Positions 11,809-33,353 are shown, counted from the first letter of the stretch. The stretch: DNA of 52,382 bases from a bacterium (GCA_021805395.1 JAJZFJ010000117.1:1-52382); one strand, 5' to 3'. A program made the numbers and translations. The notes: a model not told the origin generated them from the sequence alone.

Positions 11809-12654
11809 ATGTATCATCAGCCTAAAAACAAGTCAGGCTTCACTCTTATTGAATTGCTAGTTGTTATTGCGATTATAGCAATTCTTGCTGCAATCCTCTT
11901 CCCCGTTTTTGCCCAAGCTCGTGAAAAGGCGAGGGCTATAACCTGTGTTAGTAACTTCCAGCAGGGAGCATTAGCAATTACAATGTATGTTCAGGATTAT
12001 GATGAACATATGGTTCCAGCTGAATATGGCTGTTGCTCCTACGATCCTGACACAGGTGACCGATTATGGCCGGAATTAGTTCAGCCATACATGAAGAACA
12101 CAGGCATCTACGTATGTCCTTCTGATCCATACAATACTCCATCCACTGATCTCGCCGATATGGGCTATAACAATAATTCCAATGCTGTTGAAAAAGCGTA
12201 TGCATATGCAATTACTGCAGACTTTGGATACAATTACTACTATTTGAGCCCTTTGAATGGGTTGCCCAAAGCTGATAGTATAGGCAACACAACTGCATTC
12301 GATGGGGTATCACTCGCTTCTATAGTGGAACCAGCTAATAATCTAATGCTCGTTGACTCCGTCTGGAATGTAGTAAATGATGCACCACAAGGAGGTGGTA
12401 ACTGGCTAATTGAAACACCTAGCTACTGGTATGGCACAGGGCAATACTGGTTTGGCGGGTGGCAGATAGATAATACAAATTCTGGATTTGTATATGGTGA
12501 AACATGGCCTCGACATTTTGGTGGAATGAATGTAGCATTCTGCGACGACCATGTAAAGTATCAGAAGCTTGGTCAGCTTATAGCTGGTGTGAATCCGCGT
12601 ACCTATGTAGTTTCAGATCCGGCAGCATACGAGTGGGGTGGTCCCGGGCAGTAA
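11809..12654 (+). CDS. DUF1559 / H-x9-DG type prepilin (cassette 2)
   Basis: A 281-aa paralogue of the pilin at 10200. [17 protein letters not shown] begins at about residue 8 and [12 protein letters not shown] follows; the N-terminal ~45 residues are nearly identical among the three pilins while the globular domains diverge. The late motif reads [12 protein letters not shown], so the final glycine of H-x9-DG is replaced by aspartate. The domain is rich in Tyr, Asn and Trp, as usual for secreted pilins. ATG 11809 has AGGGAGG upstream. Followed by a perfect hairpin, then two small membrane proteins. Confidence 0.9.
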
Positions 12655-12664
12655 GCAATGTAAG

Positions 12665-12703
12665 CTCAATAGTCAGTGGAATGATATTTTACTGACTATT
12701 GAG
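12665..12703 (+). terminator. Perfect hairpin after pilin 2 (terminator or mRNA 3'-end stabiliser)
   Basis: CTCAATAGTCAGT (12665-12677) pairs perfectly with ACTGACTATTGAG (12691-12703), loop 13. No U-tract follows, so read-through into the small genes is possible. Confidence 0.55.
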
Positions 12704-12752
12704 TAATCTTAAGTTGATATCTGGCAATACTTTGTAACTGATGAGGACAATC

Positions 12753-12959
12753 ATGCAAAGAAAAATTGATATGCCCATACTTGTCATTACAGTTATTTTG
12801 TGTGTATGTCTGATTTTGGGATTGTATCATGTATACAATCAGCCATCGGACAATAATTATAGCTCTATTCGATCCCAACTCCCTCCAAGGATTCCGGGTC
12901 AAGATAAACCTTTACCCCCTCCTCCAGGGATGCACATTCCAGGAACCATCAGTCGATAA
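12753..12959 (+). CDS. Small membrane-anchored protein with proline-rich tail (cassette 2a)
   Basis: A 68-aa protein: short basic head (MQRKIDM), one transmembrane helix at about residues 8-26 with no lipobox glycine-cysteine, then an exported tail of ~40 residues with LPPRIPGQDKPLPPPPG and the end GMHIPGTISR. N-in/C-out topology is expected. ATG 12753 is preferred over ATG 12741 because GAGGA precedes it at six bases. It is the third gene-order position after pilin 2 and shares its terminal G-x-H-x-P-G motif with the next small protein. Not a recognised family. Confidence 0.55.
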   Translation: MQRKIDMPILVITVILCVCLILGLYHVYNQPSDNNYSSIRSQLPPRIPGQDKPLPPPPGMHIPGTISR

Positions 12960-13024
12960 CTGTCATGCAACTCATGAAAGACTTTTGAACATTTCTCACA
13001 GTCTTTCTTCTTGAGAGGATTTTC

Positions 13025-13246
13025 ATGAATACTACGAAAAAAAATATGGTCATTGGCCTTCTTGTAATAGGACTGATACTAGCCATCATTTCGTTTAAAA
13101 CATATTTTCTTGATAATAGCAGTGGTTCAGGGGTGAGGGCAGCTGTAACAGCACAACTGCAAGCACAGCCTACTTCCAATGTACCTGAAGCCACTCAATC
13201 CGTTCCATCTACGGTTGGGATTCATTTACCAGGAAACAAACATTGA
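13025..13246 (+). CDS. Small membrane-anchored protein (cassette 2b)
   Basis: A 73-aa protein with a basic head (MNTTKKN), one transmembrane helix at about residues 8-24, then an exported tail rich in Ser, Gln, Thr and Pro that ends GIHLPGNKH. The motif G-[MI]-H-[IL]-P-G is shared with the gene 66 bases upstream, arguing that both are real and related. GAGAGGA precedes the ATG. No known family is recognised; a role with the adjacent pilins is inferred from repeated adjacency only. Confidence 0.55.
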   Translation: MNTTKKNMVIGLLVIGLILAIISFKTYFLDNSSGSGVRAAVTAQLQAQPTSNVPEATQSVPSTVGIHLPGNKH

Positions 13247-13272
13247 AGCAATTGTTCACAAAATTGCTTCAA
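13243..13272 (+). terminator. Hairpin at the end of pilin cassette 2
   Basis: TTGAAGCAATT (13243-13253) pairs with AATTGCTTCAA (13262-13272), loop 8. The stop codon of the small gene lies in the stem. No U-tract. Confidence 0.5.
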
Positions 13273-13304
13273 TAATTCACATTATAACTGTAGTAAAATC
13301 ACAG

Positions 13305-13333
13305 TTGACATAATTTAGATTAGAGGTTATACT
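13305..13333 (+). promoter_or_regulatory. Promoter of pilin cassette 3
   Basis: TTGACA (13305-13310), 17-base spacer, TATACT (13328-13333). The -35 box is a perfect consensus. Predicted leader about 160 bases; it ends CAGGGAGGTATCCATCC before the ATG, similar to the leader of pilin 2. Confidence 0.7.
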
Positions 13334-13501
13334 TGTTAGTATGCGGAATCCTCATTCTAAGTTTACATTTTGGCTCATCTAAAGAAGTTGTCATTCTTAA
13401 TGAGACGAATCATCCGGTATGGGATGAGAAGGGCAGGCAGAAGTGACAACAATCATCTTCTGTACATATTTTATCCGCCATAATCAGGGAGGTATCCATC
13501 C

Positions 13502-14392
13502 ATGTTCAGCCATAAGCCGAAACCATCGGGCGGTTTCACGCTCATTGAGTTACTCGTTGTAATTGCAATTATTGCAATTCTAGCCGCAATTTTATTCCCA
13601 GTCTTTGCTCAGGCACGTGAAAAAGCACGTGCAGCCACTTGTCTTTCCAATCTCAATCAGGAAGCATTAGCTGATTTGATGTATCAGCAGGACTACGACG
13701 AACACTTTCCATTAGGATACGGTTTCTATAATGGAAACTGGCTTACTTCAGGCGGTGTACCTTATCTGGGCGATTGTCCTGCAAACTGGCGTACTTCCAA
13801 TGCAGCATGGGTTGAAGGAATGGGTGAGTATGAATCCAATTCAATCCAGCCATATATGAAGAGTTATCAGGCAATGCACTGCCCTGATGCTACAGATGTT
13901 CAAAATATTGCAACAGCCGGTGCATCGGGGGCAAATGACCCCGCACAGGTCTCCAGTACATTTAATGGTCTCCTGATGGCCTATCCGGATGCAGGAGTTG
14001 TTCAACCAACAACTTGTCCCATGCTCACCGAACAGTGGGGTGCAGCATATTACAAAGGGTTTACAGACGTTAATCCATTCCTTAACTGCGCAAACCCTGG
14101 CCCATGTTCATACCAGCCTGCTACAGGTGGCTGCAGCAGTTCCGTGAATGGTCAGACTAGTGGAATGTTTGGTCAACCTGCAACATTAGGTGTACATTCT
14201 GGTGGTCAAAACTGGGCATATGTCGATGGACATGCCAAGTTCAAACACTTGTCTCTTCAGGATACGACTGTTACAACAGACTATAACCAGGAACCTTGGG
14301 CACAGTACAATACATCTGGTGAAGCAGTATCTTACTGGACAGATGGCTGCCATGCATACTATGATGAGCCAGACAACACAGCTGTTCACTAA
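13502..14392 (+). CDS. DUF1559 / H-x9-DG type prepilin (cassette 3)
   Basis: A 296-aa paralogue of the two upstream pilins: [18 protein letters not shown] at about residues 10-27, then [19 protein letters not shown]. The C-terminal motif is [12 protein letters not shown] (intact H-x9-DG) near residue 237. Several cysteines in the globular domain ([16 protein letters not shown]) could form disulfides after export. The ATG has AGGGAGG at seven to eight bases. It is monocistronic up to a strong hairpin, with a lipoprotein gene 117 bases downstream. Confidence 0.9.
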
Positions 14393-15543: not shown

Positions 15544-16635
15544 TTATCTTTTGAGTGCAGCAAGAACTTGCTGGGTAATGTCTGTAGCACCTCTGGAATG
15601 TGCAGGTACAAGTACAAAACCCAGGGAATGCGCTACCTGCTGAGCTGCCAGTTTTGCATCGGTATGAGCCATTACCATTAAATTTGCTCTTCGACGCGCA
15701 ATCATTGCTTCGGTTTGAGATTGAATTTGAGAGTGCGAATCGCGTATCTGAGTAATACGTGATACCCACTGAACTCCCTGGTTTAATTGAAGAGGGGGTG
15801 GTGACGGAAGAGGGACCATTTTACTCGCAGCTGAGTTGGAGAGATTGATATGCAGTCGATTAAGCAGTGTCATCTGTTGTGAGCTTGCTAGTTGTACTTC
15901 CTTGTCTATCTGTTCAAGCTGCTGCATTTTGTAAGCCTTAAGCTTGGCTTTAAATGCTATCTCCATCTGTATCCTGATGGGTACCATCTCCTTTACAGCT
16001 GTTGGTATGACCGCAGCCTGTAGTTGAGCGCGACGCGTGTTTAGGGCTAAAATGGTACTCTTTACAATATCCAGCTGATGTAATCTATCCAGCCCGGGCT
16101 GCCCAAATGCTCGCCCAGTGTTGGTACTGAGTGCTGCCTGTTTGAGTTCCAGATTTAGCAGCTGTCTATCAATGGTAGTAGACTGTAAATTTGCCGCAAT
16201 CTGGAGGGAGTTCTCATGGCGTTTCAATTGACGGTGGTAACTGTCCTCAAGATCATCTGTTTCACTGTTTTCGAAAAGTCTATACGGAATTCGTGAGGAG
16301 AGAGTAAGCATGTGCCTGTACTGCTTGAGATATCGGCTAAGGTTTTTGCTTACGTTTTGAGCACGTACTTTTGCCAGGGAACTGCCAACATTTTGCGGGG
16401 CGTTAAAAGGCGGAGTGGATGCAGAAATAGGTACTATATGTTCCTGTGATATGTTAGGAGCAAAAATTAAATGCGCGCTCTGCTCCAAACGGTCTGCTTG
16501 TAAAGTGTACGGATCATGTTGAACGAGTGTATTGAGATTCACCCATGCTCTCTGCACTGTGATTTTATTCTGATGACCACACCCGGAAATTAAAAGGAGT
16601 GGGGCAAGCAAGAGAGCACGGTTTGAACGAGGCAT
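15544..16635 (-). CDS. Lipoprotein with OmpH/Skp-like C-terminal region
   Basis: A 363-aa exported lipoprotein: MPRSNRALLLAPLLLISGC gives a lipobox ISGC with cysteine at residue 19. The body is mostly helical and charged (ELKQAALSTN, KLKAYKMQQLEQIDKEVQLA), consistent with long coiled-coil arms. The last ~40 residues, LGFVLVPAHSRGATDITQQV and a final LAALKR, align with the end of the neighbouring OmpH (QGYTVVLDTQ, GGTDITNAVLKVLNK), the Skp core strand and helix. I infer a membrane-tethered Skp-like factor; the N-terminal ~250 residues match nothing I recognise. The ATG is seven bases after the ompH stop, so the two are coupled. Confidence 0.7.
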   Translation of the reverse strand: MPRSNRALLLAPLLLISGCGHQNKITVQRAWVNLNTLVQHDPYTLQADRLEQSAHLIFAPNISQEHIVPISASTPPFNAPQNVGSSLAKVRAQNVSKNLSRYLKQYRHMLTLSSRIPYRLFENSETDDLEDSYHRQLKRHENSLQIAANLQSTTIDRQLLNLELKQAALSTNTGRAFGQPGLDRLHQLDIVKSTILALNTRRAQLQAAVIPTAVKEMVPIRIQMEIAFKAKLKAYKMQQLEQIDKEVQLASSQQMTLLNRLHINLSNSAASKMVPLPSPPPLQLNQGVQWVSRITQIRDSHSQIQSQTEAMIARRRANLMVMAHTDAKLAAQQVAHSLGFVLVPAHSRGATDITQQVLAALKR

Positions 16636-16642
16636 GGCAAAT

Positions 16643-17311
16643 CTACTTGTTTAGTACTTTTAAGACAGCATTTGTGATGTCGGTACCACCAAAAAGCACG
16701 GCTTGAGTATCTAGTACAACGGTGTAACCCTGTTCTTTTGCTACTGTAGCCACAGCCGCTTTGAGATTGGTGGCAGCTTCCTGAATTTTAGCATCAGTTG
16801 CTGCGTTGATATCTTTTACTGTTTGATCATGGAGGGACTGGAGATATGTTTCAGTGCTGCTCTCCATCTGAACATCGTTAGTCAGTGTCTGCTTGTCTTG
16901 AGCAGAAAGGCTGGATGCTGTAGCTGTCTGCAGTTTCTGGAAAAGCTGTAAAGCGTTCTGACTCTGAGCAGTGAGTTGAGTCATCTGGGTTTTTTCGCTT
17001 GGTGTTAAGCCCGCAGGTGTTGTGCTTTTAAGAGTTAATGCTGCAAGAGTTGCCTGATCCTGTGGACTGAGCAGCGGATTTGATTTGTACACATTGATGG
17101 TGCTGTCATACGCTGCTTTTTTGGCATCTACCACTTTTGCATAGTCAACCAGAAGCTTGTAATTACTACGTACTTTGCTAATGTCCACAATAGCTATTTT
17201 CATAGGGGGTGATGCAGGGTTGTCACCATGGGCTACTGTGAGTGATGCCACTATGCAAAGTACAAATGCTGTCACGGCTACCGAGTTCCAGTATTTAGGA
17301 GAAACTGTCAT
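16643..17311 (-). CDS. OmpH/Skp-family periplasmic chaperone
   Basis: A 222-aa periplasmic protein. A signal peptide spans about residues 1-30 (ending VAHGD); the mature part starts with the family's IAIVDISKV strand, passes through two long helical arms rich in Gln/Ala/Thr, and closes with EQGYTVVLDTQ and TDITNAVLKVLNK. Skp/OmpH trimers hold unfolded outer-membrane proteins on the way to BamA. It follows bamA, the gene order known in Proteobacteria. AAAGGA precedes the ATG. The insert NPLLSPQDQ..TPSEKTQM makes the arms longer than in E. coli Skp (161 aa). Confidence 0.88.
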   Translation of the reverse strand: MTVSPKYWNSVAVTAFVLCIVASLTVAHGDNPASPPMKIAIVDISKVRSNYKLLVDYAKVVDAKKAAYDSTINVYKSNPLLSPQDQATLAALTLKSTTPAGLTPSEKTQMTQLTAQSQNALQLFQKLQTATASSLSAQDKQTLTNDVQMESSTETYLQSLHDQTVKDINAATDAKIQEAATNLKAAVATVAKEQGYTVVLDTQAVLFGGTDITNAVLKVLNK

Positions 17312-17325
17312 AAATATCCATTCCT

Positions 17326-17359
17326 TTCGATGTGAAGATACATCTATTGTATCATCGAA
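17326..17359 (-). promoter_or_regulatory. Hairpin in the ompH leader
   Basis: In the 262-base gap between bamA and ompH, TTCGATG (17326-17332) pairs with CATCGAA (17353-17359), with an inner GATACA/TGTATC helix, just upstream of the ompH SD. A second inverted repeat, GTTAGCAGT (17449-17457) with ACTGCTAAC (17515-17523), lies nearer bamA. One or both may separate expression of ompH from bamA. Confidence 0.35.
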
Positions 17360-17573
17360 CCTATTTTGTGTCTATTCTTACGGTTTATGCGTTCATTCGC
17401 TAAGCAACGCAACATAGCCAGTCTTTAACTCAACATAAAGGGGAACCAGTTAGCAGTGCTTCTTTATGCAGATTACCTCTACTATTTTACTCGACTACAT
17501 CAGTATTGTGACAAACTGCTAACTCATACGCTGCATTTCATCAGATATGACATTACAGATGCGAAGTATGCGA

Positions 17574-19526
17574 TTAGAATGCCTGTCCGATGCTGAAGTC
17601 CGCTCGTCCACCCTGATCACCGATACCATAATCTATTCTAAGGTCTCCAAGTGGAGTTCTCACCAGAGCTCCAACACCGACCGCTACATGCATTCTGAAG
17701 CCGCTTTGAAGGTAGTTTGTCAGGTTAACGGTGGAGTATGGTCCACCCCAGGCATCTCCTGAGTCAACGAATAGTACACCTGTAAAGTTTGGAGCAATAG
17801 GCTGGCGAAGCTCTACAGAAGCCAGCAGCTCATTTTTCCCCCAGAACCGGGAATCCAGGTAACCGCGAAGTGTATCGGCACCTCCCACAAAGAACTGTTC
17901 AGCGAAAGGTAAGGTGCCTATTGAAGTCCCTGCGGTTAGTCTTAGAGCAAGGATTGTCTCATCTTTCGTTGGATTGTTAAGAGGACGCTGTCCAGTAAGG
18001 CTAAAGTAACGGCTGGCAGAGATGCTTCCTTTAAGAAAGTGTGCAGTTCCAAATACTCCAGGTACAGATATGCCTGCCAGTGAGATAGGGGAGGTGAGTG
18101 TGGCAACTCCTCCCTCCACGCTAAGCTCTTCGTATCCTCCTTTTGAGGGGTTAAGAGCATAGTCACGCGTATCATGATGCAGTGTGGCACCTGCTGCAAA
18201 GATAGGGCCATCCTGAATTATCTGAAGATCCTGGAGGGGAAGATCAAGCAGATCAGTCTGAACATTTTCTGCTCTCAAGAAAACAGAAGCACTATAATTT
18301 AAATTGATTGGACGTCCTAATGTGATAGTACCGCCAACCCTCTGCTGGTTATAGTAGGAGCTTCCTCCCAGATTATTGCTGCCAAACGCGCTGAAGCCGC
18401 TTGAGAATGGATAGATTGTCTCGTCATAGAGCTGTACACCCAGTGCAGTATGGTGGCTGTCGAGGTAGGGATCTGTAAAGCCCAGGTTTACGCTGTTTCT
18501 ACCAAGTACACCTCCTGTAGATCCGCGTATGCTGAGTGTATCTGCATCCCCTTCGAAGTCATCATCAGATGCCTGAACATATCCAATCACACCCTCTGTT
18601 TGACTGTATCCAACGCCTCCAATAATCGAACCAGTGTGAGTTTCGGTGATATGAAGGGTTATGGAGTATTGTCCAGGTGCAACAGTTTCCGGTGTGATGG
18701 TGATATTCTTGAAGATTCGCAGGTTATACAGCGCTCGCAAATCTGCATCGAGTGTCTTCGTATTATAGTAACTTCCCACCTTTGTGTTCATCTCTCGGGT
18801 AACTACAAAAGGATGGGTTTTGTGAAGGCCAACGATGTGAATTTGAGCAACTTTTGCGACAATCAGTGGCAAGTCGAGAACACCATTTGCCCCCATGGAA
18901 ACATCTGGGCTTACCTGCATCTGATATCCTTCAGAAGTGTAGAGGGCTGTGATCGCGTTAGTGTCGCTAACAAATGTGCCGTAATTAAACACGCCTGTCA
19001 GGTTTTTGAGGTAACCCATCACAATTTGTGGCTTTATTGGACCAGTTCCTGTGAGGGTGATGTTTGTTACGACAGGATTCTCTTCCACCTGTATCACCAC
19101 AGTGCACGTCCCATTCGCCGGGGTAGGCTCTTCATCAATGACAGACACAGGTGGGGATTGATTGCTAAATGAACCGAACAGATTTGTGGAAGTAAGGTTG
19201 CTTATCATTTCCTCTTGAAGTGCAGGAGTAAACTGTTCACCTATTTTCACCCCACTCTGTGAAATGATAAATGGGCTGTTCAGAACTTTATTGCCTTCCA
19301 CAACTACTTTTTTGATGACAGGATATGTCGTGGTATCCAGGTCTGGTGCTGGAGTAGTTGGAGTAAGAGGGTTAGTTCCGGTAGGTGCTGCTGTGGTACC
19401 TTTTGGGTTTGGAGTGGTACCCTGGGCTGCAGCTACCCTGGGATTAGCTGCGAGCAGCGCAAATAGTGCGCCTGTCAGTGTGAGAGGGCAGGGGCGTAAG
19501 ATAGCCCCGTTTCGGCCTCGCTTCAT
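17574..19526 (-). CDS. bamA: BamA/TamA-family outer-membrane protein assembly factor
   Basis: A 650-aa Omp85 protein. Signal peptide at about residues 1-34 (ending VAAAQG), a Pro/Thr-rich linker, then POTRA domains from about residue 68 (YPVIKKVVVEGNKVL; NITLTGTGPIKPQIV; QIHIVGLHKTHPFVV), about three being visible against five in E. coli, followed by a 16-strand-type barrel with FFVGGADTLRGYLDSRFWGK (the RGY motif on L6) and the C-terminal ...GRADFSIGQAF with a terminal aromatic. It inserts beta-barrel proteins in the outer membrane. An AAGGAG lies upstream of the ATG. TamA is an alternative name because tamB is close, but adjacency to ompH favours BamA. Confidence 0.9.
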   Translation of the reverse strand: MKRGRNGAILRPCPLTLTGALFALLAANPRVAAAQGTTPNPKGTTAAPTGTNPLTPTTPAPDLDTTTYPVIKKVVVEGNKVLNSPFIISQSGVKIGEQFTPALQEEMISNLTSTNLFGSFSNQSPPVSVIDEEPTPANGTCTVVIQVEENPVVTNITLTGTGPIKPQIVMGYLKNLTGVFNYGTFVSDTNAITALYTSEGYQMQVSPDVSMGANGVLDLPLIVAKVAQIHIVGLHKTHPFVVTREMNTKVGSYYNTKTLDADLRALYNLRIFKNITITPETVAPGQYSITLHITETHTGSIIGGVGYSQTEGVIGYVQASDDDFEGDADTLSIRGSTGGVLGRNSVNLGFTDPYLDSHHTALGVQLYDETIYPFSSGFSAFGSNNLGGSSYYNQQRVGGTITLGRPINLNYSASVFLRAENVQTDLLDLPLQDLQIIQDGPIFAAGATLHHDTRDYALNPSKGGYEELSVEGGVATLTSPISLAGISVPGVFGTAHFLKGSISASRYFSLTGQRPLNNPTKDETILALRLTAGTSIGTLPFAEQFFVGGADTLRGYLDSRFWGKNELLASVELRQPIAPNFTGVLFVDSGDAWGGPYSTVNLTNYLQSGFRMHVAVGVGALVRTPLGDLRIDYGIGDQGGRADFSIGQAF

Positions 19527-19576
19527 AAGCTAGTTCAGTTCTCCTTCTAAAATAAAACATTCTTGCAATACCCAGA

Positions 19577-20308
19577 CTAATATCGTAAGTATGGCTCTAA
19601 TTTCTTTCTCAGCATTCCTCGGGCTCTAGAAAGTCGGGTCTTCACATTTTCTAGTGATAGCCCGGTAACATCCACAATTTCATTATAGGAGAGCTGCTGA
19701 TATTCACGCAATAACACAATCTCCCTGTAGTCTGCAGGGAGGCCATTCACAGCAGTCAGAATACGTTGCTGCAGTTCCTGATCTTCCAGTAGCTGATGAG
19801 GGGCACTGCTGGAATCGGGTATATCTCGTGTAACATTCATACTATCCTGGTTACCGACTATCTGGTCAAGAGATTCCGTTCGGATAGACCTGTGCCGCTC
19901 CTGTTGCCGTATGCGGTTAATACATAGATTCCGAGCAATTTGATACAGCCAGGTAAAAATTTGGGAATCACCACGAAAATGATCAAAATGCCTGTAGGCA
20001 TTCACGAATGTTTCCTGCGTTATATCTGCTGCTTCTTCATAGTCGTTAATCATGCGATAGACTGCATTGAATAACCTTTTCTCGTTCTTCTCTACAAGTG
20101 CGTCAAACTGCTGTCGTCTGATGAGATCATCTGGCACATGAGCACTCATCTGGTCAGCAGTTCCATGTGATGTGTGGTTTCCATTCTCAATCACTCTGGC
20201 TGGCAATGCATGAACTGTGCTCTCAGAACCCGATTGACAGGGGGATGATGACAACTTGCGCTTGTCTGGATTGGACATTGCAGTTTTTACAATCGAAAAA
20301 GATGTCAT
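19577..20308 (-). CDS. ECF RNA polymerase sigma factor
   Basis: A 243-aa ECF-type sigma factor. After a ~60-residue poorly conserved head, the sigma-2 region runs from about residue 65 (RLFNAVYRMINDYEEAADIT, QETFVNAYRHFDHFRG, FTWLYQIARNLCINRIRQ), a linker, then sigma-4 at about residues 180-240 (LPADYREIVLLREYQQLSYN and SLENVKTRLSRARGMLRKKL). TGGAGGG lies six bases before the ATG. No anti-sigma gene sits beside it. It lies between tamB and bamA on the same strand, which suggests envelope stress or outer-membrane control of the RpoE kind, although this is inferred from position only. Confidence 0.93.
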   Translation of the reverse strand: MTSFSIVKTAMSNPDKRKLSSSPCQSGSESTVHALPARVIENGNHTSHGTADQMSAHVPDDLIRRQQFDALVEKNEKRLFNAVYRMINDYEEAADITQETFVNAYRHFDHFRGDSQIFTWLYQIARNLCINRIRQQERHRSIRTESLDQIVGNQDSMNVTRDIPDSSSAPHQLLEDQELQQRILTAVNGLPADYREIVLLREYQQLSYNEIVDVTGLSLENVKTRLSRARGMLRKKLEPYLRY

Positions 20309-20400
20309 CCTAACCCTCCAGTGGATGTAGCGAAAGCTTAAAGGATTGAAAGATGCGATTATTTGTATAAGTCATGTTTGTGTACGACGCTAAATATGTG

Positions 20401-20437
20401 TGATTGTTACAGTCTATCATCATATTCATAACAATCA
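20401..20437 (-). terminator. Hairpin between tamB and the sigma factor
   Basis: TGATTGTTA (20401-20409) pairs perfectly with TAACAATCA (20429-20437), loop 19. It sits in the 200-base gap after tamB on the minus strand, with no U-tract; probably a weak terminator or processing site. Confidence 0.4.
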
Positions 20438-20509
20438 TTCTTTTGTGTTCATTAAAATTTAATGGCACGAAATTCTCTTCAATCCTAGACTAGTATGGCA
20501 TATCATACA

Positions 20510-23500
20510 TTAGAAGCGATAGATACCCTCCAATTGTAACGCCTTGTCATACTGCTCATTCTGTTCGTAAGACAGCTGAAGGTTGTCACTAAATCGCCAG
20601 CTGAGTTTAAGGTCGTTAAACTGCTGGGTACTGCCAAGATCGCGTGTGTAGGTGATATAAAAAGGCCCAATTAGTTGTCTGGTGAGTGTGAAGCTGAACT
20701 GTCTGAGTGGATCATAGTTTAACGACAAGTCTTCAAAACCCAGTGCTTGCGCAGGCTTTTCAAACAGAGTGGGAAGAACTGAGTTGGCCAGAACACTGGT
20801 AATCTGTTGTGTAATCACCTGCCCCGTATTGTGTCCCAAGTTTGCGATTGCCCCAATGCCAAGGGCATTTGCAACTTGCGTCATCAACTGTTTCTGGTCG
20901 CCTGAGTAATCAGGGGGATTCGTCTGGAAATCCAGCTGGAGCCCTTGCTGAGAGGAGTTCAGATTTTCGGTAGCTCCACTAAGATCACCCCTTGCTGTTA
21001 CCACAACATTATAGCGTTTCTCGCCAGAGAAACCGGGAGATGGTAAATCCAGTGCGGTTTGTGCTCGAACATTCACATGTACTCCCAACGTTGGAGAGCC
21101 TGGTGTAGCTGGTGAATAAACAGGGTAGGTGAGATCGATTAATCCAGGCGGCAGCACTTTAAATCGGGCAGTGGGTAATGAAAGCACTCCCTGTTTAATT
21201 ACCAGCTGTCCGGCAAGGTGTATAGGTGAGGATATGGCTGTAGTTTGAGATTTGGCTGCTGTTCTCTGAGCAGTAAGCGTGAGCAGTCCCTCTACCTGAG
21301 CATCTAGTCCTGATGCTGAAATTGTAACATTTTTGCCAAGCGCTACTCCCATGCGTAGATGCTGGAGTACTGGAAGTGCAAAACTTGATCCCTGACCTCC
21401 CGTTGTGAGAGTAGGCGGTGAAAAATATGCATTGGTTATATTCACATTTCCTGTGAGATCAGGATTCACCAGGGAGCCAGCTATTCCGAATGTGAGTTGC
21501 GCTTCGCCTCGTGCCACGCCACTTCCAAATCCTGGAATTGGACTCTGGTTGAACAGCAGCTGTTTTGCTGCAATCTGGATTGAACTGCCATCGCCTCGAC
21601 CGATGATTGGAAGCGATCCTGAGATAGTGATAGGAGATCCCTGTTTTTCTTTGCCAGGTGCTGAGTTGTCTGCCAGCCAGGATTGTGCTGTGAAACCAGG
21701 GGCAACACTCAATGTGGTGCCATTGAACAGTAGTTCGCCATGAATATTGCTCAGCCAGGTGGCAATATAGGTGGGTTTTTGATTAGGTTTCACCAATCCA
21801 ACTTGCAGCTTTTTGGCATCTACCTGTACTGATCCCGTCACTAATGGATCCGCCAATGTGTTAGTAAGATCTGCTTTTGCTGCAACTGTACCATCGCTGG
21901 AAATGGATATGCCTGGAACCAGTGCCGCAAGATCCTGTATTTTTTGGGAAGGGATGTTCGCAGATAGCTCTAGTGGTGCAGTTCTACTTAAGTAGGGTGC
22001 ATGCCATTGAAAACCGAAGCTGCCATGCATATTTCCTGAGAAGGTTCCTCTAGATCCATCCTGTCGAGTATATGAACGTGAGATTGTGATGAGATCTACG
22101 GTAGCTTTAGGCTGCTCAATTACAGCTCTGCTCAAAACTATCTGATCTATCTTCTGACCACCTACTTGAAGATTACTGAGCTGTGCTGATGCTTCAACCA
22201 CAGGTGATTTCAGGTTTCCGGAAACGCTGCATGTGAGATCGCCCTGGCCGTTCAAATTCTTTATCTGTTTCTCTATAGTGGGTGAGAAGCTAATGGGCAA
22301 AGCCCTCGCTATTGCTCCCACATTCAGATTATATAATCCAAAGTTGCCGGATACTGCACCATGCGTAGTGAGATCTGCACTGTTTGCCAGCACTATTCCA
22401 AGAGGACTTAAAAGACGTAAGGCTGGACCCTGAACGCCAGATGCCGGCATTACAATGTGGTGTTTATCGCCAGAAGCGCTTGCATTTATCTGATCGATCT
22501 GTACTCCACCAACTACCAGATTCTTCCCAGAAACCAGAATGGAAGCAGTTGGATTGGTAATAAGTCCCGACAGTTGTAAAGAGCCAGAAAGGCCGCCTGA
22601 TAATGTTGTGCTGGAGTCTTTCAGGAATGAATTCAGAGCAGAGAGTGAACTGCTCTGCTTCATTTTGGACTGCAGATATGCTGATCGAATACTATCGAGT
22701 GGAATATCGGTCCATGAAGCATTTCCATTCACTTGTCTGGTTGTGAGATTGTATGTTGCATTTTGAATAGATAACTTGCCTGGCGCACTTCCTGTAGAGC
22801 TGTTATCATTTGTGGGTAGAGTGAGCGTGAGGGCATTAACACCGATCTGTTTCCCTGAGGTACTGAGTGTGCCAGTGAGATTTCCGGCATTGAAAGCTAG
22901 GTACCGAAGATTGTCAACGTTTAATGAGGCTGAAGCAACAGGATCCGTAAGAGTGCCACTAGCGGTGCCCTGTATGTGAAGTATGCCAGATACTTTCTGG
23001 TCGGGTGAGCCAGTTGCTGCGGTTAACAGCTGCTGTATCTGCATTCCTTTGACCGAGTATGTAGCACTTAGACTGTGCTGCGTGTTCACATGAGATATTA
23101 ATGATAGTGATCCTCCAGCCATCTGAAGATTAAGATAACCCTGCAAAGTGTGTAAAGGGCTGTAGTATGCAGATAGTGCGGCAGTTGTTATAGGGATACC
23201 ATTCATGGATCCATTATTTAGAGTGAGTGTTGCTGGAGTCAGCATGTATGGACTTTTTAGAGGTCCTTCAATCTCGATTGGACTACTACTTAGAGAACCC
23301 AGGATGGGTGAGACCGAACTGGCACCAGATGCTCCGATTTGAACGTGTGCTAACTGCATCAGGTCACCTATATCGAATTTGCTAGCCTGAACTGTAGCCA
23401 CAATGGAAGGAGATTTAGATTGATAGTTATCGATATTGCCTGAAAAATCCACTACACCTGGGTAACGAACGATAGATCCTTTAGAGAGGGCAATCTGGTT

Positions 23501-25477
23501 CCGGGTCACATTGAAATGGGTACCCGCTCGCACCAGCGAGAGTCTGCCTGCCTTCAGATCAATTGCTACCATTCCACCGTTGAGATTGGGATCATGAAAT
23601 GTACCATCCAGATGCGCCCGCAGATAACCCAAACCTTCCAGCTGGTTCAGATCTATTAGTGGAACTTTTGCCAGCTTGTCGGGACCCATAATAACCGGCA
23701 TTGTTTTACGATGCAGAATGGGCTCAGCAGCCTGCATAAGTGAATTGAGATTGATGTCATCTCCAGCTAACGCCAGGTTATATCTTTTTTGAGAAAGGTT
23801 CACTACTCCCGATGCATGAATATAGCCTTTGGTATCATCAATGCTGAAATTGTGAATCAGCAGACGTCTTGATGCACTGGAAGCTCTCAGATAAACCTGA
23901 GCAAGAGACTGATTTTTATAGCTCACACCATTCAGAATAACCTGTGCTGATATGTGTGGAGTTCTTCCAACCCTGCCAATAATCGCAACATCAGCGTTAC
24001 CCATACCATGCATTGGTGTGTGGAGTAATCGTTGAAGATATGACAGATGCAAATCTCTACCATGTGCTGTGGCTTTAAAAATTCCATCATGGGCCAGATG
24101 CACCGTGCTGCGAATTTCAACATTTCCACTGGCTGCTGCTGCATTCACATCGGCCAGGAGATTATGGTTAAGAAGATATGCATGCAAACCAACATTGCTG
24201 GCAGTGTACACTCCCCACTTCATTTTATTGAAAGAGGCATTTAGTGTTCCCGCAGGATTGTTCAAAAATCCAGAGATGTTAAATGAAGCCATTCCAGAAG
24301 CTGCACCCTGTCTGGAGGATTGTTGCACAAATGGGGATTCATTTCGCAGTAAATACGCCGCGTTAATAGCATGGTAAATTTTAGAATAGTCCAGATTACT
24401 CAATAAACCCTTAACAGTAATGTAGGGGTAAGAGGATGCCTGTGTGGAGAGCAAAGGAACGCCTACAACTTGCCCCTGTACCGATATGCCTGATCCTGCA
24501 AAGTCTCCGGTAAATGTCCCACTCACCGCATCAGCCACCACCATCAGAGGTCCATTAACATTTGTCACGGGGGAATTTAACCCATTTACCGATAGACCAG
24601 CGTTCTTTAAAACTATCTGTCCATTCACCTGTATTGGAGTGTGTCCGGCAACAGGATTATACAGCAGATCTGCATCAGTATCTGCTGTACCACCCAGAAT
24701 TTTCGCTTTGCTTTTCAGTTCCGGAAATAATTCTGCAACCGTTGTTAACCCTAACTTTTGTACTCTTACGTGCGAAATAAATCTAAGTGGGTTTGTGTGA
24801 ATTACACCCGCTACGTCTATATGCTGAAGTAGAGAAGAGTTGCCATATCCATCACCTTTGCACTGTATGCTGCCATCCGGTCTGAAATGGAGTGTGAGAG
24901 CAACAGAATGCAGGGTAGTGTTCAAAACTGGAGAAGGATAGTTTTTAGCATGTGGAAAATCACGGTCGAGATAATGCACCGTCCCATTGACCACCACCAG
25001 TGAACTTATAATTGGTGATGAGGGTTTAGTTGAGGGATGGATCAGGGAAGCGAAGTTCCAAACTCCCGACTTACTTCTATCCAGTGAGATAGTGGGACCA
25101 GACACAACTACCTGCGAGATTGGTGGAGTAGTTTTGTTTGCAGCAAGAAGCAGATTAGAGTTGTAGGTAATTCGAATGGTCTTAACGTTGCCCAAACCTG
25201 GCTGGTGAGTTTTTTTATCTGCTCCAACATACACACCTGTCAGCGTGACTCTGTTTGTACCAGGAATCCAGGGTGCATTGCTGAATGTGACATTGCGAAT
25301 CAAAACCTCACGGTTAAGACTTGTGGTGGCCTGTTTAGAAATGATTTCAGCGAGGTGTGGACCGGTCGTGAGGTAGTCAAACATTCGATGCAGAGTGGAG
25401 ACAGCAAAAAATGTAAGTACAATCGGAGGGGTGACAAGGATATAGAAACCGCCGTGGCGTTTCAATACACTTATCAC
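20510..25477 (-). CDS. tamB: TamB/AsmA-like translocation and assembly module protein
   Basis: A 1655-aa periplasm-spanning protein anchored by an N-terminal helix (about residues 8-27, FYILVTPPIVLTFFAVSTL). The body is a long series of beta-rich AsmA-like repeats (recurring hydrophobic/Gly-Thr strands with V-x-G-x2-x4-P patterns), and the last ~300 residues are the TamB (DUF490) domain, including VLANSVLPTLFEKPAQALG, LTRQLIGPFYITYTRDLG and a terminal YEQNEQYDKALQLEGIYRF, a barrel-like end. Such proteins act with TamA/BamA and move phospholipid to the outer membrane. GTG 25477 is chosen over GTG 25504: AGGAGG lies nine bases before it and nothing precedes the other. It begins 46 bases after lipA. 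Confidence 0.88.
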   Translation of the reverse strand: MISVLKRHGGFYILVTPPIVLTFFAVSTLHRMFDYLTTGPHLAEIISKQATTSLNREVLIRNVTFSNAPWIPGTNRVTLTGVYVGADKKTHQPGLGNVKTIRITYNSNLLLAANKTTPPISQVVVSGPTISLDRSKSGVWNFASLIHPSTKPSSPIISSLVVVNGTVHYLDRDFPHAKNYPSPVLNTTLHSVALTLHFRPDGSIQCKGDGYGNSSLLQHIDVAGVIHTNPLRFISHVRVQKLGLTTVAELFPELKSKAKILGGTADTDADLLYNPVAGHTPIQVNGQIVLKNAGLSVNGLNSPVTNVNGPLMVVADAVSGTFTGDFAGSGISVQGQVVGVPLLSTQASSYPYITVKGLLSNLDYSKIYHAINAAYLLRNESPFVQQSSRQGAASGMASFNISGFLNNPAGTLNASFNKMKWGVYTASNVGLHAYLLNHNLLADVNAAAASGNVEIRSTVHLAHDGIFKATAHGRDLHLSYLQRLLHTPMHGMGNADVAIIGRVGRTPHISAQVILNGVSYKNQSLAQVYLRASSASRRLLIHNFSIDDTKGYIHASGVVNLSQKRYNLALAGDDINLNSLMQAAEPILHRKTMPVIMGPDKLAKVPLIDLNQLEGLGYLRAHLDGTFHDPNLNGGMVAIDLKAGRLSLVRAGTHFNVTRNQIALSKGSIVRYPGVVDFSGNIDNYQSKSPSIVATVQASKFDIGDLMQLAHVQIGASGASSVSPILGSLSSSPIEIEGPLKSPYMLTPATLTLNNGSMNGIPITTAALSAYYSPLHTLQGYLNLQMAGGSLSLISHVNTQHSLSATYSVKGMQIQQLLTAATGSPDQKVSGILHIQGTASGTLTDPVASASLNVDNLRYLAFNAGNLTGTLSTSGKQIGVNALTLTLPTNDNSSTGSAPGKLSIQNATYNLTTRQVNGNASWTDIPLDSIRSAYLQSKMKQSSSLSALNSFLKDSSTTLSGGLSGSLQLSGLITNPTASILVSGKNLVVGGVQIDQINASASGDKHHIVMPASGVQGPALRLLSPLGIVLANSADLTTHGAVSGNFGLYNLNVGAIARALPISFSPTIEKQIKNLNGQGDLTCSVSGNLKSPVVEASAQLSNLQVGGQKIDQIVLSRAVIEQPKATVDLITISRSYTRQDGSRGTFSGNMHGSFGFQWHAPYLSRTAPLELSANIPSQKIQDLAALVPGISISSDGTVAAKADLTNTLADPLVTGSVQVDAKKLQVGLVKPNQKPTYIATWLSNIHGELLFNGTTLSVAPGFTAQSWLADNSAPGKEKQGSPITISGSLPIIGRGDGSSIQIAAKQLLFNQSPIPGFGSGVARGEAQLTFGIAGSLVNPDLTGNVNITNAYFSPPTLTTGGQGSSFALPVLQHLRMGVALGKNVTISASGLDAQVEGLLTLTAQRTAAKSQTTAISSPIHLAGQLVIKQGVLSLPTARFKVLPPGLIDLTYPVYSPATPGSPTLGVHVNVRAQTALDLPSPGFSGEKRYNVVVTARGDLSGATENLNSSQQGLQLDFQTNPPDYSGDQKQLMTQVANALGIGAIANLGHNTGQVITQQITSVLANSVLPTLFEKPAQALGFEDLSLNYDPLRQFSFTLTRQLIGPFYITYTRDLGSTQQFNDLKLSWRFSDNLQLSYEQNEQYDKALQLEGIYRF

Positions 25478-25523
25478 CTTGCTGTACCTCCTTATACTTT
25501 GCACTCAGTCAACAGATACGAAA

Positions 25524-26414
25524 TCAGGCAACCCCAACTCTTGACAATCGTTCGGACAGCAGTTTCTCAGAGAACTCATGGGCATTATATGAAGATCTTA
25601 CAAATGGCCCAGATGCAACAAACAGAAATCCCATTTCAGTACCAATACGTTCATATTCTTTAAACTGATCCGGGTGAATATACTCCGCAACTGGTAGGTG
25701 ACGATCAGTAGTAGGACGTAGATACTGTCCTATGGTGACAGCACTAACTCCTACCTCCCGCAGATCCCTGAGGGTTTGAACGACCTCATCGTGAGTTTCA
25801 CCCAATCCCAGCATAATGCCTGATTTTGTGTATACTCCTGAATCCATCTGGGTAACAACCCTTAAAAGGTCTAGGGTTCTGTCATACTTGGCCTGTGGTC
25901 TCACAACAGGTGATAGTCTTTCAACGGTCTCAATATTATGATTGTAGATATCTGGACGAGCTTCCACAACACGTCGTATACACCAACGTTTGCCTTTGAA
26001 ATCTGGTGTCAGCACTTCAACAATCACCCCAGGTATTGCTGCACGCAGTGCGTAGATGGTATCAGCAAATTGGGATGCACCTTCGTCCGGGAGTTCATCC
26101 CTGGCAACAGATGTAACCACCACATGCTTCAGTCCCATCTCTTTTGCTGCTTCCGCCACCCGTCGCGGCTCATCCACATCGAGGTCTAAAGGCTTGCCAA
26201 CTTTTATTGCACAGAAGCCGCAGTTCCTGGTGCATATATCTCCAAGAATCATAAACGTTGCTGTTCTTTTCGACCAGCATTCGCCAATATTAGGACACCG
26301 TGCACTTTCGCAAACAGTATGGAGTTTGGAGGATCGCATCATCTCCTCCACATTGTTCACAGTTTCAGGATTGGGGACTCTTTTTGTTAACCACACAGGC
26401 AGTCGATTATTCAA
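25524..26414 (-). CDS. lipA: Lipoyl synthase
   Basis: A 296-aa radical SAM enzyme that inserts two sulfurs into octanoyl groups on lipoyl carrier domains. The auxiliary-cluster cysteines appear in TVCESARCPNIGEC at about residues 34-45, the radical SAM C-x3-C-x2-C in ICTRNCGFCAI at about residues 60-67, and the family-typical LTPDFKG, NHNIETVERL and TIGQYLRPT follow, with the terminal GPFVRSSYNA motif. Length is normal. The start is TTG with GCGGAG eight bases upstream. lipB is not nearby. It is the first gene of the lipA-tamB transcript on the minus strand. Confidence 0.97.
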   Translation of the reverse strand: MNNRLPVWLTKRVPNPETVNNVEEMMRSSKLHTVCESARCPNIGECWSKRTATFMILGDICTRNCGFCAIKVGKPLDLDVDEPRRVAEAAKEMGLKHVVVTSVARDELPDEGASQFADTIYALRAAIPGVIVEVLTPDFKGKRWCIRRVVEARPDIYNHNIETVERLSPVVRPQAKYDRTLDLLRVVTQMDSGVYTKSGIMLGLGETHDEVVQTLRDLREVGVSAVTIGQYLRPTTDRHLPVAEYIHPDQFKEYERIGTEMGFLFVASGPFVRSSYNAHEFSEKLLSERLSRVGVA

Positions 26415-32028: not shown

Positions 32029-32234
32029 AAAAAATTTCCTGTCGATGATACAGTCTATACTAGAATTATTACACCTAACTCATGCCTTATGCATAACAGT
32101 AACCATGGCACAAGCAGGATATCAAATCATAAGTGTAAAAATAGTAATAGTATTGCGCGACGGTGAGTGTAACAATCACTCTCCATTAGTGTCTGTATTA
32201 GGTAAGGCAAACCAATAGGAAGTGAGGCAATCCA

Positions 32235-33353
32235 TTGATTAACATTTCAAAATGGATAATGTTTTCAGCATTAACATTTACGGTTATTTCTCCAACCTGT
32301 GAGGCTCCAAAAAGTCAGCCCCTCATTATGAGAGCAGATAATGCAGTATCTAAAGGAGTGGCGTATCTTCACAGTATACAGGAGAAGGATGGATCCTGGA
32401 GTCACTACCCAGCTATCACAGCACTTGCACTCATGGCGTTACAGGGTAATGGTCACACCGAGAATAATGATGCTTCTGTTGCCAGAGGGATTGCTTTCCT
32501 GCTGAAATTTCAGCAGCCAAATGGTGCCATCTACAGCTCCAGGGACCCGAATACAGCCTTGCCGAATTACAACACAGCGCTTGCCATAATGGCACTTGCC
32601 ATGACACATAATGTTGAGTATCACCCCATCATAGTTCGTGCCAGAAAGTTTCTGGAAAACCTGCAGTTCGGTGTTACAGATGGTATGAAACCCTCTAATC
32701 CTTTGTACGGCGGAATTGGATATGGCTCTGATCCAGATGACCATCCAGATCTTTCCAACCTGGCAACTGCACTTGAAGCATTGAAAGCGAGTGGGTTGCC
32801 TTCTGATGCACCGGTGTTCAAACGTGCTATTATTTTTATACAGCGCGTTCAGAATCGTCCTGAAAGCAACGATCAAGCGTGGGTGAAGTCTGGTCCAAAA
32901 GATGGCGGCTTCGTGTATGATCCGTTAGGTGATACCAAATCCCCAAAAGGACATCATACCTCAACTGGATCGATGACATACTCAGGAGTAGAGAGCTACA
33001 TAATATGCGGTGTCTCCAAAAAAGATCCCAGATTGCAGTCTGCATGGAGTTGGATAACACAAAATTTTTCAGTGAACCATAATCCGAATCAAGGCAATGC
33101 TGCTTTATACTATTACTACAACATTATGGCAAAGACTCTGGATGCTTACGGCTCCAAACTGGTGTATGGAAAACATGGCACTCCTCATAACTGGGCAGAC
33201 CTTCTGATGGCCAAGCTTGTAACTCTTCAACATCCAGATGGCTCCTGGTATAACACCAACCCGAGATATTGGGAGAATCAGCCACCTTTGGTCACAGCGT
33301 ACACACTAATCTCTTTATCACACTGTATTCACCCTAAAGGAGTAGCTCTTTGA
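32235..33353 (+). CDS. Secreted alpha/alpha-toroid protein (squalene-cyclase/prenyltransferase-like repeats)
   Basis: A 372-aa exported protein. Residues ~1-22 are a signal peptide. The mature part repeats the toroid motif of a Gly/Trp-containing turn followed by a helix: [57 protein letters not shown] and a final [13 protein letters not shown] with TAYTLISL. The catalytic DxDD/DCTAE motifs of cyclases are absent, so a binding or scaffold role is more likely than terpene cyclisation. The start is TTG with GTGAGG upstream. It overlaps the MoxR gene by four bases (TTGA), so the two are cotranslated. Confidence 0.8.

Follow-up and report, generated by a model that had tools for sequence, protein, structure and literature searches.

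A probable split sigma/anti-sigma circuit for outer-membrane-assembly stress, with its driver in the bamA operon

In the RpoE/RseA system, the C-termini of unfolded outer-membrane proteins (OMPs) trigger proteolysis of the anti-sigma factor RseA (PMC8103513). Class I anti-sigma factors have been collected from gene neighbourhoods, and orphan ones were raised as a possibility for the extracytoplasmic function (ECF) sigma factors of group ECF12 outside Actinobacteria (PMC7406223). Here we analyse an ECF sigma factor encoded in a 52,382-nt stretch of bacterial DNA (GCA_021805395.1, JAJZFJ010000117.1:1-52382; hereafter the window, to which all coordinates without a prefix refer). Its gene lies within a block transcribed entirely from the minus strand, in the order lipA, a tamB-like gene, the ECF sigma gene, bamA, ompH and the gene of a Skp-like lipoprotein. 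The original prediction had placed tamB, sigma, bamA, ompH and the lipoprotein gene on one strand with no anti-sigma gene adjacent; open reading frames (ORFs) and domain matches bear out the first point, and the second holds for the block, where no ORF between the genes is anti-sigma-like, and for the bamA slot in all 49 relative loci. We consider it probable that this sigma factor belongs to a split circuit of the sigmaE/RseA type responding to outer-membrane-assembly stress, with the driver in the bamA operon and the brake encoded elsewhere.

The host genome is a draft assembly (4.16 Mb in 319 contigs). A collection-wide scan with an alignment of the sigma factor gave Armatimonadetes/Fimbriimonadaceae metagenome-assembled genomes as the closest named records listed, two of which share the sigma-bamA adjacency, and the DUF1559 pseudopilin-like genes of the window are consistent with Armatimonadota, which we take to be the phylum. 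A BamA match was found in 59 of 61 related genomes. The sigma gene lies directly upstream of bamA on the same strand in the 49 relative loci, almost always preceded by tamB, and this tamB-sigma-bamA order spans many families of the phylum while the other neighbours change. The arrangement, which the original prediction needed to find in relatives, is thus conserved far beyond chance. Against a hidden Markov model, the sigma orthologues in this slot score at least 241 bits and the other ECFs compared at most 184; in the distant families f34, f43 and f44, the sigma factor in the same slot scores 181–214 bits. In families f14 and f5 and in part of f19 the slot holds no sigma gene, and bamA follows tamB directly wherever tamB is readable. 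The same arrangement was not seen outside the phylum among the best 80 ECF loci listed, which is weak evidence since few of these are from Armatimonadota.

The sigma factor (19577–20149, minus strand, about 190 aa from a conserved ATG at 20149) carries the Sigma70_r2 and Sigma70_r4_2 domains (PF04542, 63 bits; PF08281, 56 bits) and scores 116 bits against TIGR02937 (cut-off 42.9). Regions 2 and 4.2 are present and region 3 is absent, as expected for an ECF sigma factor. It is not classed as RpoE, because its score against the RpoE equivalog TIGR02939 (123.9 bits) is below the curated cut-off of 236, and its score against the SigW equivalog NF007223 (134.7 bits) is likewise below the cut-off of 209. 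The nearest solved structures are AlgU, RpoE and SigW.

Three lines of evidence, namely orphan status, co-loss and promoter class, connect this sigma factor with an anti-sigma gene at a distant locus. Firstly, the original prediction had advised looking in the genome for an anti-sigma factor of the RseA-like or zinc type, and this turned up a candidate: a zf-HC2 search identified a 348-aa protein at G000:C40:13630-14673 (hereafter the C40 protein). All zf-HC2 domains of this genome lie beside sigma genes except this one; a match at C131 was rejected as an orphan because a sigma-like ORF adjoins it. Conversely, 12 of the 15 ECFs found in the genome have an adjacent anti-sigma-like gene, the exceptions being the block sigma and two others, C285 and C17. 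The zf-HC2 match of the C40 protein reaches 24.2 bits for the trimmed domain against a cut-off of 22.2 (the whole protein, at 21.7, falls slightly short) and recurs in 15 of 21 orthologues. The N-terminal anti-sigma domain is followed by a transmembrane helix at residue 112 (hydropathy 1.88) and a periplasmic tail, and a single helix after the N-terminal domain is found in 26 of 36 orthologues. The family profile retrieves RsiW best (E 7e-9), then RskA, DdvA, RseA, RsrA, MucA and ChrR. With its ASDI/zf-HC2 domain, the C40 protein is predicted to be a class I (ASDI) membrane anti-sigma factor resembling RsiW and RseA. The two types fit, since the kin of the sigma factor are AlgU, RpoE and SigW, whose partners resemble this profile. 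The window's family lacks the ligands of the zinc anti-sigma (ZAS) motif Hx3Cx2C, which the sister family f3 retains; zinc and non-zinc members are known to mix within anti-sigma groups (PMC7406223). The anti-sigma gene is conserved throughout the phylum and in most cases precedes the gene for a giant putative OMP. Of the unconventional control that the original prediction had envisaged, the location therefore stands, beside a giant putative OMP and away from the sigma gene, whereas the protein itself looks conventional. Two genes upstream of the anti-sigma gene, the genome encodes a DUF2092 periplasmic protein (L172:9449-10204), which was not seen beside the anti-sigma gene in the relatives examined. 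One genome of family f4 (G058, locus L418) has a near-orthologous sigma gene (222 bits) away from bamA, two genes downstream of an anti-sigma gene of the same kind, which looks like a duplicated and relinked sigma/anti-sigma pair.

Secondly, sigma and anti-sigma genes are lost together. Among the 46 genomes in which both loci are readable, 35 have both genes, 11 have neither and none is discordant. On the BamA tree each trait changes four times, and the independent pairs on well-supported branches agree in direction (3/3). The sigma-less lineages retain the tamB-bamA adjacency and the putative OMP gene. The giant gene stays in family f14, where none of 16 loci has an anti-sigma gene upstream, and in the f19 genomes G091 and G110; the anti-sigma gene was therefore lost specifically. 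The giant OMP itself was rejected as the co-lost partner, being kept where sigma and anti-sigma are gone. In three of the 11 double negatives (G032, G059 and G161), the homologues of the giant protein are weak (108–122 bits), and these genomes therefore weigh less.

Thirdly, the two loci carry promoters of one class. The motif GTAAC-N16-CGTC occurs in the tamB-sigma interval in 15 of 16 genomes of the window's family, where shuffled sequences predict 0.018 genomes. Its family form is TGTAACA-N15-CGTCCTA, and the window has TGTAACA-N15-CGTCGTA at 20383–20411 (minus strand), downstream of tamB. In the aligned leaders, only GTAACA and CGTCCTA are conserved. There is no other copy of GTAAC-N16-CGTC in the block of about 10 kb, so the local wiring that had been proposed finds its counterpart in a single site, directly before the sigma gene. 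The shared promoters expected separately before bamA, ompH and lipA were not found, and promoters of the sigma class proper to bamA, ompH, the lipoprotein gene or tamB were rejected for the same reason. Since the promoter lies directly before the sigma gene and nowhere else in the block, the operon of sigma, bamA and ompH is most likely under the control of the sigma factor that it encodes. In the host genome, this promoter is the sole exact match to TGTAAC-N16-CGTCNTA; across 17 family genomes there are 19 matches, most of them at the sigma locus, and a reversed control pattern gives more matches in all, hence no general excess of the exact motif elsewhere. The idea that the exact promoter serves a large regulon across the genome was rejected on this ground, and we predict an autoregulated sigma-bamA-ompH-lipoprotein operon with few other exact targets, provided that the sigma factor recognises the site. 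Upstream of the anti-sigma operon, an unbiased dyad scan returned GTAAC-N16-TGTC, found in 8 of 14 genomes of the window's family (0.0165 expected) as GTAACA-N15-TGTCnCA. The −35 element, the spacing and the GTC core are alike in the two promoters. Taken together, co-loss, promoter class and orphan status probably link the C40 anti-sigma factor to the block sigma, which it would bind directly.

Two further observations concern this promoter class. In the sister family f3 (L063–L080), the ACG, AAC and GTC codons at the 3′ end of tamB are invariant in 11–12 genomes while other synonymous sites vary, possibly reflecting a promoter that overlaps the tamB stop region. In the window, GTAAC-N16-TGTC occurs at two sites where 0.39 are expected; one of them, a possible further promoter of the class (32169–32193, plus strand), lies 66 bp before a gene for a secreted squalene-hopene-cyclase-like protein (32235–33353) that is followed by a MoxR ATPase gene, and the pair is a possible regulon member.

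The gene directly after the anti-sigma gene in most genomes that have one (L172:3791-7615 at the C40 locus) encodes a protein of 1000–1400 aa with few cysteines and, read by eye, an apparent signal peptide. Of the 28 long orthologues, 26 end in Phe; a signal peptide together with an aromatic residue at the C-terminus marks clients of the beta-barrel assembly machinery (BAM). The family has homologues throughout the phylum and shares an N-terminal motif, LRGNGTR.GY.LSHG. A Pfam search with 16 orthologues assigned no family and revealed neither a TonB plug nor a barrel or secretin domain. In families f15 and f24 the giant gene is missing from the anti-sigma locus, yet an orphan anti-sigma gene is still there. 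One f14 genome without sigma and anti-sigma (G151, locus L250) has a paralogous ECF gene (133 bits) directly upstream of the giant gene.

We propose that these parts form a variant of the sigmaE/RseA envelope-stress circuit, wired locally at its output and split at its control. The ECF sigma factor would transcribe its own sigma-bamA-ompH-lipoprotein operon from the TGTAACA-N15-CGTCCTA promoter, and would read the promoter of the anti-sigma operon as well. The single-pass C40 anti-sigma factor would hold it inactive until a lag in OMP folding, perhaps of the giant protein, relieved the inhibition, probably by proteolysis as in RpoE/RseA. The released sigma factor would then raise BamA and Skp, and renewed synthesis of the anti-sigma factor, again by analogy with RpoE/RseA, would close the loop. 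A bolder version, which we hold only tentatively and do not favour, is a closed loop across the phylum in which the giant, family-less BAM client serves as a sentinel devoted to BAM capacity, its operon supplying the anti-sigma factor and the BamA operon the sigma factor. If true, this would be a two-locus sensor without counterpart in the described RpoE, SigW and Fec systems.

Several points weigh against the split circuit. The co-loss amounts to three to four independent events, with a sign test p of 0.25 (three pairs cannot reach 0.05), and the sigma-positive genomes were partly chosen because the anti-sigma gene had been found, hence not blindly. In a mirror-tree comparison, sigma and anti-sigma distances show no correlation beyond the species signal (partial r 0.03). 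C285 and C17 also lack an adjacent anti-sigma gene, and the C40 protein may really belong to one of them. The −10 elements differ, with CGTC at the sigma gene and TGTC at the anti-sigma operon, and GTAAC-N16-CGTC is absent at the sigma gene in f3. Several sigma-positive families have no detectable giant gene. The giant protein is likely a beta-barrel, on indirect evidence, its strand alternation being weak (mostly z 0–2, against 3.2 for the BamA barrel). Finally, binding, the dependence of both promoters on the sigma factor and the nature of the signal are what we infer from these data.

Among the alternatives, the one that survives best, although we think it unlikely, makes the sigma factor a growth-coupled housekeeping driver of BAM synthesis, with an anti-sigma factor that only sets the stoichiometry of the giant OMP and BAM. 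The near restriction of the exact promoter to the sigma factor's own operon and the joining of anti-sigma and OMP genes in one unit agree with this; however, a class I membrane anti-sigma factor with a long periplasmic tail normally relays an envelope signal (textbook knowledge), and several lineages keep the BAM genes without the sigma gene. We regard as improbable that the sigma factor lacks any anti-sigma partner and that only its own transcription or its leader controls it, while the orphan anti-sigma factor serves another ECF. ECFs that are controlled by other means than an anti-sigma factor are known (PMC8999054), the bamA slot has no adjacent anti-sigma gene throughout the phylum, the promoter implies autoregulation and the non-coding leader is long. 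This alternative does not account for the perfect co-loss with the orphan anti-sigma gene in 46 genomes, the promoter class common to both loci or the pairing of almost all other ECFs in the genome, and the leader offers neither a conserved element beyond the two hexamer-like promoter elements in its aligned stretch of about 230 nt nor an Rfam match; a leader RNA element was rejected on these grounds. It is very unlikely that the sigma gene is a chance neighbour regulating functions unrelated to the envelope. Operon gene order can persist without regulatory meaning; yet this order holds throughout the phylum, with the surrounding genes varying, and with a conserved promoter between tamB and sigma the transcript should carry bamA and ompH.

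A last alternative turns on the start of the sigma gene. The longest ORF (20308-19577) encodes 243 aa. Over its first 54 or so codons, substitutions between close relatives are spread evenly over the codon positions (e.g. 12, 13 and 19), whereas in the core they show a strong third-position bias (18, 7 and 108), and 15 of the 16 genomes in the comparison have a start codon at the domain boundary (20149-20147); one genus (L054, L055 and L112) offers too few substitutions for a verdict. The sigma factor is therefore about 190 aa long, its mRNA has a probably non-coding 5′ leader of some 230 nt at 20150–20376 (minus strand), and the start of the 243-aa ORF is almost certainly too early. That an N-terminal extension stands in for the anti-sigma factor as a regulatory domain is hardly credible and was rejected: many relatives' ORFs do reach 30–76 aa upstream of the conserved domain, but the extension, which in the window comprises the first 53 residues of the ORF, evolves as non-coding DNA, with no third-position bias in two genera, no extension in two relatives and the start codon conserved at the domain boundary.

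The other genes of the block, all on the minus strand, are as follows. Upstream and outside the proposed sigma operon, lipA (25524–26414) encodes a lipoyl synthase (TIGR00510, 379.8 bits, above the cut-off). The tamB-like gene (20510–25504) encodes an AsmA/TamB protein of 1664 aa whose identity is assigned from its conserved position before sigma-bamA, a DUF748/AsmA match (E 1e-11, below the cut-off) and its C-terminal region, with no curated TamB match. Fifty base pairs after the sigma gene, bamA (17574–19526) encodes POTRA and Omp85 domains (OM_YaeT) by Pfam and NCBIfam matches. It is followed by the gene for an OmpH/Skp-like periplasmic chaperone (16643–17311; PF03938, E 3e-11) and by that for the Skp-like lipoprotein (15544–16635; lipobox LISGC), whose slot is shared with close relatives and whose C-terminus resembles OmpH (39% over 44 aa, E 0.003); a Pfam search of the lipoprotein gave no match. 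Outside the block, at 11809–14392 (plus strand), lie two genes of the DUF1559/N-methyl pseudopilin-like kind whose N-termini are almost identical.

Outer-membrane assembly sensing in diderms outside Proteobacteria is largely unknown, and a literature search with combinations of Armatimonadota, ECF and BamA returned no description of this system. The present candidate, phylum-wide in the little-studied Armatimonadota, names a sigma factor, an anti-sigma factor, a promoter and a probable client. It also cautions that the lack of an anti-sigma gene next door need not mean that an ECF has no anti-sigma factor; surveys restricted to gene neighbourhoods would miss this pair. With E. coli RpoE-RseA-RseB (DegS/RseP), it shares an ECF of the RpoE/AlgU/SigW kind, a class I single-pass anti-sigma factor, bamA and skp as output and, if the sigma factor reads its own promoter, autoregulation; in contrast to E. 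coli, the sigma gene lies inside the bamA operon, the anti-sigma gene is found away from it beside the gene for a giant putative OMP, the regulon seems narrow and an RseB homologue is not established. Bacillus subtilis SigW-RsiW is similar in both proteins: among solved structures, RsiW matches the anti-sigma profile best and SigW is one of the nearest to the sigma factor, but the Bacillus genes are adjacent and there is no outer membrane, whereas here they are unlinked. As in FecI-FecR-FecA, the anti-sigma gene adjoins a gene for a large (here putative) OMP; unlike in Fec, that protein matches no TonB plug, barrel or secretin domain and the sigma gene lies outside the cluster. The closest precedent in concept is the suggestion for ECF12 that an unpaired ECF may be served by an orphan anti-sigma factor (PMC7406223); that remark names no partner, whereas in the present case co-loss and promoter point to a specific candidate.

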